Source: a virus. From it: a stretch of DNA of 64,000 nt. Below are positions 4,003 through 44,532 of this stretch, piece by piece; the stretch's first letter is position 1, and each line of letters begins with the position of its first letter. Made by a program: the position numbers and the translations under genes. The notes beneath the pieces were generated by a model. The model was not told where the DNA came from. It ran no database searches and worked only from the letters and a program-made list of their open reading frames with translations. The DNA is taken from positions 1-64,000 of IMG/VR virus record IMGVR_UViG_3300020187_000015; one strand, given 5' to 3'.

Positions 4003-4806
4003 TTACGCTACCAAGCTTGCTAACTTATCCGTGTCGAGGGCTAAAACGCCTTTAGCGCGATTCTCAGCGCTTGTAACGCCATTTGTGTTGCGATAGACCT
4101 TGTGATGATTCTCATACTCAGTAACAGCGTTGAACAAATCCCATGAGTTTTGCCCACGATTGCCCTTGCCCGAAACAAAAAGCTCGCGGATTTCATCGCG
4201 AATGTTTTCGGCACGCTTAGACTCGCCCTTGACAATACGATTTAAGCGATCAGTGACGCCATCGCTAGTCAAACGAATCGCTTTGAGATCATTAGCTAGT
4301 TCAACATAGTGAGCTTGCATAGAGTCAAACGACCCAAGCGCAAGATCGATGCGCCCTTGTGAGATGCCCTTCCAGTTAGCTGTGAAGCGTGTTACGGCAT
4401 TGCCCTCTGACTTCCAGCCCATCATGCCATTAGAGCAAATCTGAACCAGCATCTGTAAACCAAAGCGATCAGAGCAAGATGAGTTAAGCGACCCGTGACG
4501 CACGATGCGGCATTCTGTATCGCGCTCGCCCAGCTTAATCGTCTTGTATGGCATAGAGATGGAATAAATAGTTCCATCAGCGCCATGACTTGAACGCATT
4601 AGTTTAATCGATGGATTAAACTCGCATTGCATTGCATTTGAGAGATCGACAAAGGGCGCAAGCAATCTGTCGAATGTTGGAATCGAGCGATCATTGCCTA
4701 CTGTCGCGCTATACTCGCCATTAATACGAATCTCTTTAAACTCTACGTTCAAAGCGTGTTCAGTGATATCGAGGGCGAGGGCTTCATTTGCATTTACGTT
4801 TTTCAT
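4003..4806 (-). CDS. DUF932-like phage protein, copy 2
   Basis: 267 aa, the same length and architecture as the protein at 1971-2774, including the NGEYSATVGNDRSIPTF, ICSNGMMGWKSEGN and ELFVSGKGNRGQNSWDLF blocks. Divergence is spread over the protein and is greater at silent sites, so the duplication is not very recent and both copies seem to be kept by selection. The leader has AAACCATATAAAACA. A -35-like TTGACA with TCTATT at 17 bp lies upstream at about 4870-4900. Confidence 0.8.
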   Translation of the reverse strand: MKNVNANEALALDITEHALNVEFKEIRINGEYSATVGNDRSIPTFDRLLAPFVDLSNAMQCEFNPSIKLMRSSHGADGTIYSISMPYKTIKLGERDTECRIVRHGSLNSSCSDRFGLQMLVQICSNGMMGWKSEGNAVTRFTANWKGISQGRIDLALGSFDSMQAHYVELANDLKAIRLTSDGVTDRLNRIVKGESKRAENIRDEIRELFVSGKGNRGQNSWDLFNAVTEYENHHKVYRNTNGVTSAENRAKGVLALDTDKLASLVA

Positions 4807-5151: not shown

Positions 5152-5586
5152 TTACTTAATTAACTCTTTACCCTTCTGCTTGAGGCTAACTAAACCAGCC
5201 TCTTTAACAGTTATGCAAAGCGGCTTTGAAGATGCGCTTGAGCTTGGAAGCATGATCTTGGCTTGGCTAGAAGAAACCTTTACGCCGTCAACTAAATAAA
5301 ACACTTTCATTGACTGACCCAAGTAGAGTCTCAAATAGCGATTGCCTTTGTGAGTAATAGCGTATGGATAGGATTCCCATTCGCCCCAAGGTAGGCTCTT
5401 AGGTTTGATTCCATTGTCTTTTACTTTAGATAGGTTACGATACTCAATACCTGTGCGAACGGTGCAAAGGATGACTTTAGTTATATCGTGCTGAGCAAAA
5501 GCTTTTAAAGGCTTCTTTTTAGATACGATTCTAGCAATGGCAAATGTGCCTTTGCGAAGTGTTTTTAATGCATTTAGTTTATTCAT
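5152..5586 (-). CDS. Conserved hypothetical protein, paralogue of the gene at 448-891
   Basis: 144 aa, almost co-linear with the protein at 448-891 (shared MNKLNAL.TLRKG, IARIVSKKKPLKA, LPWGEWESYPYAITHKGNRY and PLCITVKE.GLVSLKQKGKE). The main differences are in the linker after the first third and near GVKV. A TTGACT -35 lies upstream on the minus strand at about 5670. Together with the DUF932-like pair, the order is A-B-B'-A', so two families were duplicated around one another. Function unknown. Confidence 0.75.
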   Translation of the reverse strand: MNKLNALKTLRKGTFAIARIVSKKKPLKAFAQHDITKVILCTVRTGIEYRNLSKVKDNGIKPKSLPWGEWESYPYAITHKGNRYLRLYLGQSMKVFYLVDGVKVSSSQAKIMLPSSSASSKPLCITVKEAGLVSLKQKGKELIK

Positions 5587-5770
5587 AATGACTTAGTTTT
5601 AATATAGCAGAATTGCTATAACGTATAAAATGACTATCGAAATGCTTGAGTCAAGCAAATGCAGAAAAAAAAATAAAAAAGATTCTAAATCAAATAATTT
5701 AAATTCTACCTAATCCCGTCGATTTCCACGGGTATGAATAAAGGGATTATGTTGACGGATAGACAGGATA

Positions 5771-9089: not shown

Positions 9090-9121
9090 TGCCTTTTTTA
9101 ATTTTTTTTTAAAAAAAATAA

Positions 9122-9188
9122 TGGAGGTGGGTGGAGTTGAACCACCGTCTTTAAATTAAATAATTTAAATCGAAACCCTTTCACCCCC
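9122..9188 (-). ncRNA. tmRNA-like tRNA-like domain without mRNA part (67 nt)
   Basis: The minus strand begins GGGGGTG, which pairs with CACCTCC at the 3' end (7 bp, one G-U) and leaves a discriminator A. The T arm is GGTGG-TTCAACT-CCACC, preceded by GAC. The 5' part reads GGGGGTG, AAA, GGGTTTCGA: it matches the D-loop analogue of tmRNA (GG-TTTCGA) and has no D stem. Between them a perfect 9-bp helix (TTTAAATTA / TAATTTAAA) replaces both the anticodon arm and the whole message domain. Loops of even size prevent a standard 7-nt anticodon loop. CCA is not encoded. An ordinary tRNA, a decayed tmRNA and a functional decoy all remain possible. Confidence 0.55.
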
Positions 9189-9263: not shown

Positions 9264-9950
9264 TTACCCTATTACGAAGCCTGTTGCATCTTTTTTAGCC
9301 ATACCCTTTTGCGCTAATCCAACGACGACGTTTGAATCATCTAAGAATCGTAAATCGCTCTTATCACCGTCAATTACTTTTTTACCTTGCCAAGTCTTAG
9401 GCAATTCATTACGGAAAACGCAAGCAACGTTTCCGCCAAGCTCTAAAATAAGTTTTACCAAGTTTTCGTTTGACTCGCTGCGCGAAAAAGTCAAGTGATA
9501 GTTGCTAGGCATTTCACCTTTAGCGAATGCCATTGCACGTTTAAAATGCTTTGTATAATCGTAAAAAGTGATTTGCGGGAAAGCCTCAAAAACTGTCTTG
9601 CCTTCATGCTTAATCTTTTCCCAAGGCAAATCGGAAAGAACGTTCAAACGTATGGCAAGTTTCAAACCTTTTCGACTCGCGCTTTTTTCGGCTTTAGTAA
9701 CTTCCTCAAAAAGTTGCGTCATAAAGCCCCTCTTATCAGTGAAAAACTTTTTTGTGCGTGCAATACGTGCATCTTTAACATTAGGCATCGCGCCGCGCCC
9801 TGCTGTAAATAAGCAAGCTTCACTGCAACCTTGGCTTGCACTTGTGCAAACATTGCCAAAGCCGCCAAGGGTAAAAGGCGCAAGCTGAATTCCTAGCGTG
9901 TGCCAAGTGGTATCTTTTTCGAGTTTTGTGTTTGTGGTTAGTAGTTTCAT
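9264..9950 (-). CDS. GP88-like phage protein
   Basis: 228 aa. It resembles the phage gene-88 family: the cysteine motif CTSASQGCSEAC (C-x6-C-x3-C, about residues 35-46), then AIRLNVLSDLPWE, FYDYTKHFKRA, YHLTFSRSESN, VIDGDKSDLRFLDD and the end KKDATGFVIG. The family is widespread in phages. The conserved cysteines suggest a metal or Fe-S site, but the activity is unknown. The promoter lies 6 nt upstream of the ATG (leaderless). The first codons spell CTAACCACAAACAC, the same CA-rich motif found in leaders of neighbouring genes. Confidence 0.8.
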   Translation of the reverse strand: MKLLTTNTKLEKDTTWHTLGIQLAPFTLGGFGNVCTSASQGCSEACLFTAGRGAMPNVKDARIARTKKFFTDKRGFMTQLFEEVTKAEKSASRKGLKLAIRLNVLSDLPWEKIKHEGKTVFEAFPQITFYDYTKHFKRAMAFAKGEMPSNYHLTFSRSESNENLVKLILELGGNVACVFRNELPKTWQGKKVIDGDKSDLRFLDDSNVVVGLAQKGMAKKDATGFVIG

Positions 9951-39556: not shown

Positions 39557-40134
39557 TACCAAACAATAGCACTTAATTCTGCGAAACTAGTGGCGTTAGC
39601 GATTGCTTCGTTAAGTTCTTTTTCACGAGAAAATGCTGCCGACTTTCTTTGAATACCTTCCGAAATTGCTGTTTGAAACTGAGCCTTTGAAATTGTATTG
39701 TACGAACCATCGGCGTTCTTATAATCTGGGAAAGAGCCGCCGTCTGGCAGGATTTCGATAATTGTTTTTGTGTCGATGATGGTTTCTAGGTCGGCCTTAA
39801 ATTGAAAACCATCACTAGTCGTGAGAATAGAGTTGTATTCCGCATCTCTAGCTCTTTTAATCTCTGCAAACTTTCTAGATTTAAACATATCGGGATATTC
39901 AATAAATCTTTCTTCTCGTCGCTCCAGTCGTTTGATCTCCATCTTTTCTTGAAAAGTAACAACGTTATTGTTAATCAGGAAAAGTGGTTCGTCCGAAGAC
40001 TCAAAAGTTGCAGCCTTCGCATTCGAGATTTGAACGACTTCTTCAGAATTGGTATTATAAGAGCCATCTTCGTATGCATCTTCTTGCACTTCGATGATTC
40101 GTCTTGTTTCGATGTTAATTAGGGCGTTTTTCAT
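39556..40134 (-). CDS. DUF4376-like tail-fibre accessory protein
   Basis: 192 aa. A short N-terminal strand region (INIETRRIIEVQEDAYEDGS), then a helix with KRARDAEYNSILTTSDGFQF, then KADLETIIDTKTIIEILPDG and NADGSYNTISKAQFQTAISE. The R-D-x-E-Y...T.DGF.F.AD pattern is like the DUF4376 domain of tail-fibre assembly and baseplate proteins. It is adjacent to the fibre genes. Confidence 0.55.
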   Translation of the reverse strand: MKNALINIETRRIIEVQEDAYEDGSYNTNSEEVVQISNAKAATFESSDEPLFLINNNVVTFQEKMEIKRLERREERFIEYPDMFKSRKFAEIKRARDAEYNSILTTSDGFQFKADLETIIDTKTIIEILPDGGSFPDYKNADGSYNTISKAQFQTAISEGIQRKSAAFSREKELNEAIANATSFAELSAIVW

Positions 40135-40931
40135 AATTCGTTGATCCAGTTAAATTTTTGGTTAAGTTGTTCTGAGAGTTGGCGGCCAAGTGTTTCGTGC
40201 CAATCTTTTTTTAGTGGTTTTACTTCTTGGCGAATAACATGGTCTCCATATGGGAAACCTACATCATTTTCTTTGGTGTATTGTTCTACGTTGGAAGTGT
40301 TGTGAACGAAAGGCTCTTCTCCAAGAAACTCCCATACATTATTCATTACACTTTGTGGGTCTTCTGTTAAGTCTTCAGCATGAATAAACATTAATTTATC
40401 ACCAAATCTTTCGGCAGCTTCATGTAATCTCTCGATTGCAATACCAATTGGAGGGCTTTGTAGCCAACCTTGAGCGCGTTTATCGATAGTTGTCCAGCTT
40501 TGTGGGTTTTGTTGCTCCACTCCGTTAAAAACTTCTGGGTGCTGCTGGCGTTTCTTTTCCATGCTGGAAAGAATGCCGCGTATATCGCGGACTGGCACAA
40601 GAACCTTTGCGTCTGGCCACACCTTAAAAAGTTGATCTAGGTGACCAATCCAAGAGCGGCACTTGTCTACAACTACAGGGCGGTCTGTGATACTATTAAA
40701 TGCGTTCTCACATCCAGCCTTAACGTAATCCAAATACATAGGCTCAAGAACTTTTTCCATATCCACTGCCTTTGCCTCTTCAGTCTGAAAGACTTGGCGA
40801 GCTATGTAGCCAATTTCGTGCAAGGCACTTGTTGGTGTAGCGTGGACCCTTGGGTTCTGCGCTAGAAGATTGCAGAGCAGCGTGGAGCAAGCTCTTGGAA
40901 GACCAGATACGAAGTGTAATTTTTTACTCAT
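40131..40931 (-). CDS. PAPS-dependent sulfotransferase
   Basis: 266 aa. The 5'-phosphosulfate loop SGLPRACSTLLCNLL at the N-terminus and VPVRDIRGILSSMEKKRQ as the 3'-phosphate binding region mark a sulfotransferase fold. Sulfotransferases of this type occur in marine and other phages near tail genes, perhaps modifying surface glycans or tail-fibre partners. It overlaps the DUF4376-like gene by 4 nt. Confidence 0.8.
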   Translation of the reverse strand: MSKKLHFVSGLPRACSTLLCNLLAQNPRVHATPTSALHEIGYIARQVFQTEEAKAVDMEKVLEPMYLDYVKAGCENAFNSITDRPVVVDKCRSWIGHLDQLFKVWPDAKVLVPVRDIRGILSSMEKKRQQHPEVFNGVEQQNPQSWTTIDKRAQGWLQSPPIGIAIERLHEAAERFGDKLMFIHAEDLTEDPQSVMNNVWEFLGEEPFVHNTSNVEQYTKENDVGFPYGDHVIRQEVKPLKKDWHETLGRQLSEQLNQKFNWINEL

Positions 40932-43839: not shown

Positions 43840-44532
43840 TTATATTATGTTAACGGTCACGTTTGTGTTTCCGCCAATTGTTTGGCCAGGTCCAGCTGTC
43901 CAACCCAGTCCAGATGGCGCGTTTATAGTAAGAGGAGATGCCGTGCCATTGAAAACATTATCTAGGCCATTTATAATAGAAAAATCTACATTGCAGTTAA
44001 TTGTCGCTAAGTTAACGCAATTACGAAAAGCGTTATCCCCAATACTAGTCACACTGCTGGGAATGGTTAAGCTGTTCAGGACATTGCAGTTTTGAAGTGC
44101 GCTAACCCCGATGCTGGTAACGCTGTCTGGAATATTGATACTTTGGATAGCGAAGCAGAGCCGAAATGCATTTTGATCGATACTTGTGATACCGTTAGCG
44201 ATGGTTACATCCGTCAGGGCATCGCAACGAATGAATGCGGATTGCCCGATGCTGGGAACATTGCTCCCAATATAGATACTAGTTAAAGTAGTGTCATCGC
44301 CGTAATACTGATTGTAAGTCAACGGAGCAGTAATATTTCGTGTTTGCTCCACAGTGCCGTGAAAGTCTGTAGTATACGTATACACATGGTTTTTAGCCGA
44401 ATCGCTCAGTGGCAAATTACTAAATCTAATCTTTTTGGTCTCATCTGCGCTGGTATCTACAACAGGTAAGAGGTCAGTTGCTGCGTCAGCTGAAGTTAGT
44501 TCCGTAAGTTCTGATATTTTTTTGTCCGCCAT
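43840..44532 (-). CDS. Tail-fibre LRR protein 3 (BspA/LRR_5 type), short
   Basis: 230 aa. N-terminal domain MADKKISELTELTSADAATD, four or five LRR_5 repeats (INIPDSVTSIGVSALQNCNV), then the same C-terminal cap as protein 2 (PSGLGWTAGPGQTIGGNTNV). Its leader has GTGTAATAAATA before the ATG. The three proteins share the ends but differ in repeat number, as in modular fibres that swap binding parts. Confidence 0.75.
   Translation of the reverse strand: MADKKISELTELTSADAATDLLPVVDTSADETKKIRFSNLPLSDSAKNHVYTYTTDFHGTVEQTRNITAPLTYNQYYGDDTTLTSIYIGSNVPSIGQSAFIRCDALTDVTIANGITSIDQNAFRLCFAIQSINIPDSVTSIGVSALQNCNVLNSLTIPSSVTSIGDNAFRNCVNLATINCNVDFSIINGLDNVFNGTASPLTINAPSGLGWTAGPGQTIGGNTNVTVNII

Follow-up and report, generated by a model that had tools for sequence, protein, structure and literature searches.

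A 67-nt message-less tmRNA gene in a phage genome, one of at least 157 such viral loci

Introduction

A short locus in a virus record (IMG/VR IMGVR_UViG_3300020187_000015) resembles the two ends of a tmRNA joined without the message, which raises the question of what kind of RNA it encodes and what such an RNA might do for a phage. The window analysed comprised positions 1 to 64,000 of this record. A first-pass annotation of the sequence had described the tRNA-like domain of a tmRNA with the message part missing, and had suggested that it could act as a decoy or inhibitor of trans-translation.

Both the message-less phage tmRNA and the idea of tmRNA inhibition had been published before that annotation was made. 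The tmRNA gene of mycobacteriophage DS6A was called TLD only in a 2014 survey (PMC4131195). According to passages in two articles, both citing Mao et al. 2009 (pmid 19617710), a DS6A-like TLD-only molecule strongly inhibits tmRNA, perhaps by titrating SmpB (PMC4131195, PMC11915505). A 2025 tmRNA database contains nine unique standard-order sequences without a tag, with DS6A the named phage, and 79 phage tmRNAs in total (PMC11915505).

Results

The locus encodes a tRNA-like domain of tmRNA

The gene is read from 9188 to 9122 on the minus strand as GGGGGTG-AAAG-GGTTTCGA-TTTAAATTATTTAATTTAAA-GAC-GGTGG-TTCAACT-CCACC-CACCTCC-A (Table 1). It is followed directly by TTA, in agreement with the first-pass annotation that CCA is not encoded. 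The Rfam tmRNA model RF00023 matched positions 9119-9188 of the minus strand from model position 1 to 374, with 57.7 bits (E 5e-20 in the window; GA cut-off 47 bits). In the alignment the tRNA-like domain was intact, 306 model positions covering the message and pseudoknots were absent, and 20 nt separated the two halves. The 7-bp acceptor stem, the T arm, the preceding GAC and the stemless D-loop element described earlier are all present. The predicted fold of the minus strand comprised the acceptor stem, a P2 hairpin and the T arm (−20.8 kcal/mol, z −2.6). The middle helix, placed by the first-pass annotation where tmRNA has its message and tRNA its anticodon arm, was found there, but the proposed 9 bp and 2-nt loop are better read as 8 bp and a 4-nt loop; a ninth pair would leave a loop of 2 nt. 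With this adjustment, the structural claims were all confirmed.

Compared with tmRNA in the strict sense, the RNA has the tRNA-like domain (an acceptor stem with G3-U70, A73, a D loop without a stem, and the T arm). It has no tag-encoding reading frame, no pseudoknots and no long P2, which is reduced to the 8-bp hairpin. It corresponds instead to the TLD-only class of the DS6A type, since it contains little beyond the tRNA-like domain, in unpermuted order, and is encoded by a 105,788-base virus record with phage DNA polymerase, RIIA, helicase and recombinase genes. The 67-nt gene is thus an additional case of a known and very small kind.

Two other classes were considered and rejected. ARAGORN, which the first-pass annotation had named as a check, called neither a tRNA nor a tmRNA at the 67-nt RNA; a canonical tRNA was further discounted because the D stem is not conserved and the middle arm carries a 4-nt loop and not a 7-nt anticodon loop. 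A permuted or two-piece tmRNA (RF04321) scored 17.4 bits against a cut-off of 47, and the acceptor half does not precede a coding half. RF00023 found no further tmRNA match or piece over the whole virus record.

Table 1. Features of the message-less tmRNA locus (positions in the window).
Feature	Position	Strand	Evidence
67-nt message-less tmRNA gene (tRNA-like domain only)	9122..9188	-	RF00023 full model; at least 157 similar viral loci
Acceptor stem, 5' strand GGGGGTG, with G3 of the alanine identity pair (G3-U70) as third base	9182..9188	-	7 of 7 paired with 9123-9129
D-loop-like GGTTTCGA, no D stem; conserved tmRNA element	9170..9177	-	RF00023 alignment
P2-equivalent hairpin TTTAAATT-ATTT-AATTTAAA, in place of message region and pseudoknots	9150..9169	-	Fold; outer P2 pairs covary (119 sequences)
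GAC and T arm GGTGG-TTCAACT-CCACC	9130..9149	-	RF00023 alignment; T-stem pairs in 119/119 relatives
Acceptor stem, 3' strand CACCTCC (contains U70), and discriminator A73; no CCA encoded	9122..9129	-	Sequence and RF00023 alignment
T-rich tract ATTATTTTTTTT, directly 3' of the RNA	9110..9121	-	Read from sequence
Upstream neighbour, GP88 family (PF17338)	9264..9950	-	Pfam, E 6e-47

Genomic context

The RNA begins 75 nt past the stop codon of the GP88-family gene on the same strand. A consensus promoter scan found none directly upstream of it, so the RNA is probably co-transcribed with that gene. The T-rich tract is a possible 3' end or processing region of the RNA, and a T-rich stretch is also present 3' of the RNA in two relatives (L022 and L023).

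Genes in the window encode a DNA polymerase III alpha subunit, RIIA, ribonucleotide reductase, a DnaB-like helicase and a UvsX-like recombinase. The remainder of the record encodes large proteins, mostly without PHROG families. The structural-region proteins tested gave no PHROG family except for one glycosyltransferase match, and two had no relatives among known phages. No terminase was found with PF03237. The window also encodes a sulfotransferase-family protein (40131-40931; PF13469), a protein with BspA-type leucine-rich repeats (43840-44532; PF13306), and two 267-aa proteins (1971-2774 and 4003-4806) that both match phrog_1221 and are probably paralogues.

Relatives in viral sequences

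IMG/VR was scanned with a DNA pattern containing only tmRNA landmarks, with the halves 6-36 nt apart, and 41 viral contigs matched. Together with the window's own record, a message-less RNA scored above the Rfam cut-off in 41 of 42 records; the exception, L004 (35 bits), has a stored sequence that ends within the 3' acceptor strand. A looser pattern gave at least 120 matches and a short-form scan 21. After a strict structural filter, the IMG/VR pattern scans yielded at least 157 viral loci with 121 distinct RNAs, which fall into two size classes. The short class (61-70 nt), which includes the window RNA, accounts for 16 distinct RNAs at 19 loci. The remaining RNAs form a long class of 74-82 nt, with a common inner hairpin of approximately AAAGCC-NNNNNN-GGA on top of P2. 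This inner hairpin (for example in L007:5353-5434) could be a binding site. In L015, a short message-less tmRNA is immediately preceded by a tRNA gene (5513-5638, minus strand) whose anticodon region carries a ~50-nt insertion.

Three further contigs carry identical or near-identical copies of the window RNA. In the near relatives, changes in the RNA are confined to the loop and the spacer or produce a G-U pair, and the RNA is better conserved than its flanks; in a more distant relative, L023, many stretches of the flanks are only 65-86% identical. No neighbouring gene was common to the whole set of carriers; gene clusters follow phage lineages and often consist of structural genes. Judged from these scans, the message-less design is common and conserved among viruses.

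Covariation of the stems

Covariation was analysed at positions left free by the patterns, in 119 distinct, unfiltered viral matches, and compared with shuffled partners; the shuffling ignores the relatedness of the sequences. Acceptor pairs 4, 5 and 6 were formed in 112, 114 and 106 of the 119 sequences (shuffle maxima 83, 68 and 81), where the better of two acceptor registers (spacer of 3 or 4) was taken. T-stem pairs 1-3 were formed in every sequence (maxima 61, 61 and 80), and P2 pairs 1-7 in 101-119 (maxima 60-107). Many pair types occurred at most of the tested positions, with strong compensatory pairing in the acceptor, T and P2 stems. The acceptor and T-arm pairing, on whose conservation the first-pass annotation had made its reading depend, is therefore kept in the relatives. 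With at least 157 viral loci sharing this architecture, and with pairing at the free positions above the shuffle maxima, the design lies far beyond chance.

The alanine identity pair

G3-U70 is a potent identity element for alanyl-tRNA synthetase (AlaRS) and is conserved without exception in tmRNA (PMC3985003). In a scan with both positions left free, G-U was present in 105 of 105 distinct matching sequences among those collected. Some of these had first been obtained by scans in which one member of the pair was fixed, and one does not belong to the family. Acceptor pairs 4-6 varied widely while G3-U70 was invariant. A73 was fixed by the looser patterns and is not independent evidence. A DS6A-like molecule inhibits tmRNA whether it is chargeable or not (PMC4131195); as inhibition is reported to be independent of charging, a pure SmpB sponge would not need G3-U70. 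Its invariance suggests that natural selection favours the charged form, and the sequences seem to point to a role beyond simple titration.

Host partners and cellular genomes

SmpB was not encoded in any of 86 carrier records, and no full-length tmRNA was found in 42. Many of these records are fragments, such that absence is weak for a single record and informative jointly. With no SmpB and no full-length tmRNA of the phage, the RNA would have to act via host partners. Tyrosine integrases were rare: just 4 of 50 carriers had one, and the window's record had none.

The looser pattern was also run against one representative genome for each of ~85,000 species of bacteria and archaea, giving 58 matches. 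Most resemble the 3' ends of full-length tmRNAs, as judged from the sequences themselves. Five pass the family filter and one comes close (L173, L181, L183, L210, L219 and L199); these lie in bacterial assemblies (Acidimicrobiaceae, Acidimicrobiales, Sinomicrobium, Phycisphaerales, Parafrankia and Mycobacterium), and are probably prophages or phage contigs in bins. With about six cases in ~85,000 genomes, the design appears to be mainly viral.

Cultured phages

Among 15 regions of cultured or deposited phages examined, a message-less tmRNA was found only in Streptomyces phage BRock, a cultured isolate (KX925554 ~97140-97220, minus strand; L045:752-832), where it lies unannotated among tRNA genes. 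The BRock RNA shares the TLD-only form, G3-U70, the T arm and P2 with the window RNA, but belongs to the long class with the inner hairpin and has a different acceptor stem sequence. Most other phage T-arm matches examined (crAss-like, Cellulophaga, Pseudomonas and Mycobacterium phages) were full-length or permuted tmRNAs. A second tmRNA-like match in one carrier (G012:26541-26616, 31 bits) was rejected as an ordinary tRNA-Ala. Three Crass-like phages (cr50_1, cr53_1 and Bohxovirus; L043, L044 and L055) carry permuted tmRNA genes, and in cr50_1 a RAGATH-22 RNA (155.6 bits) lies ~0.5 kb upstream. A partial GOLLD RNA match was identified near the tmRNA of Mycobacterium phage MrMagoo (L050:1431-1630; 75 bits, below the cut-off, with the stretch ending inside the match).

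Discussion

The 67-nt RNA has much in common with several known systems. Like a standard one-piece tmRNA (RF00023), it has the G3-U70 acceptor stem, A73, a stemless D loop GGNTTCGA, GAC with the T arm, and P2 at the junction; it differs in having neither tag frame nor pseudoknots, and in its length of 67 nt against ~350. DS6A likewise encodes a phage RNA with little beyond the tRNA-like domain, proposed to inhibit host tmRNA via SmpB titration. Set against the published description of DS6A, the window RNA is of the short class with a minimal capped P2 hairpin, and most relatives found here are of the longer class with the extra inner hairpin. The full-length or permuted tmRNAs of phages such as Bxz1 and Melnitz are also phage-encoded homologues of host tmRNA, but keep the tag-coding part. 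Message-less mitochondrial tmRNAs (RF02544; jakobids) and plastid tmRNAs of Mallomonadaceae (~65 bp) have similarly kept the tRNA-like domain and lost the coding part; these are not viral, and the mitochondrial ones are mostly permuted and accompanied by nuclear-encoded SmpB.

Our preferred reading, at a probability of about 0.6, is that the RNA acts, once charged with alanine, as a decoy of host SmpB and trans-translation. It would probably be transcribed together with the adjacent phage genes, cut to length by tRNA-processing enzymes of the host and then provided with CCA. Host AlaRS would charge it with alanine through G3-U70, and the charged RNA would bind host SmpB and EF-Tu and compete with host tmRNA for SmpB and stalled ribosomes. 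As it has no message, the nascent chain would not be tagged for proteolysis, and host trans-translation would be damped during infection. We infer that the RNA is expressed and charged, binds SmpB and benefits the phage.

Trans-translation helps some phages, so its inhibition is not obviously useful to a phage. The main rival to the charged decoy, which we consider possible but considerably less probable, is tag-less rescue, in which the alanyl-RNA and SmpB would enter ribosomes stalled on broken mRNAs, take over the nascent chain and eject the mRNA; other factors would recycle the ribosome without a degradation tag, and the phage would keep its ribosomes and spare its own proteins. The selection for charging implied by the invariant G3-U70 is consistent with this, as are the mitochondria that keep message-less tmRNAs with SmpB, thought to help with incomplete mRNAs (PMC11915505). 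However, a similar molecule inhibits tmRNA and does not replace it (PMC4131195), and no release step is known in the absence of the message's stop codon. An alanine carrier outside rescue, for instance in non-ribosomal aminoacyl transfer or alanyl-tRNA sensing, would also account for the conserved identity pair and the missing anticodon arm. This is improbable, as the stemless D loop, a mark of tmRNA known to interact with SmpB (PMC3985003), is conserved as well and no neighbouring gene is common to the set.

Other explanations would make the RNA a relic, a fragment or an artefact. Phages commonly integrate at tmRNA genes, with attP copying the 3' part of the gene (PMC10865867), so the RNA might be what is left of an attachment site in a host tmRNA gene, or else a tmRNA gene in decay. 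Here both gene ends are present and joined by a perfect hairpin, compensatory pairing is kept across 119 sequences, conservation is higher in the RNA than in its flanks, and tyrosine integrases are rare among the carriers and absent from the record; an attachment-site relic was rejected on these grounds, and the remnant explanation in general is slightly less probable than the alanine carrier. A split system, in which a separate phage or host message RNA pairs with the tRNA-like domain, has precedents in the two-piece tmRNAs of alphaproteobacteria, cyanobacteria and some phages (PMC9004378), but is very improbable, given that the gene order is unpermuted, that P2, with which a partner RNA would have to pair, already forms a closed hairpin, and that RF00023 shows no second piece in the record. 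Large internal deletions of tmRNA genes have been reported in older metagenome assemblies (PMC11915505), and a chimeric or gapped assembly could have removed the message of a normal tmRNA. The copies in three further contigs, the more than 100 divergent copies and the TLD-only gene of the sequenced isolate BRock led us to reject this, and a random deletion would leave no covarying hairpin; its probability is close to negligible.

A broader reading, to which we give somewhat short of even odds, is that message-less tmRNAs form a widespread phage RNA family with two architectures, functional only in the alanine-charged state. As counterfeit rescue RNAs they would enter stalled ribosomes together with host SmpB and there block trans-translation or redirect it. 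If this is true, ribosome rescue would be a common battleground between phages and bacteria. New in these data are the breadth of the design, its division into two size classes and the finding that the alanine identity pair is strictly conserved: few message-less standard tmRNAs were known before, and there are now more than 100 distinct viral RNAs, with G3-U70 strictly kept and no phage SmpB. The presence of a message-less RNA in more than 100 other viral sequences suggests that many phages interfere with, or take over, host ribosome rescue. What had been a curiosity becomes a testable proposal of general reach, namely that a small counterfeit RNA lets phages manipulate the ribosome rescue of their hosts, and BRock is a cultured phage in which it can be examined.
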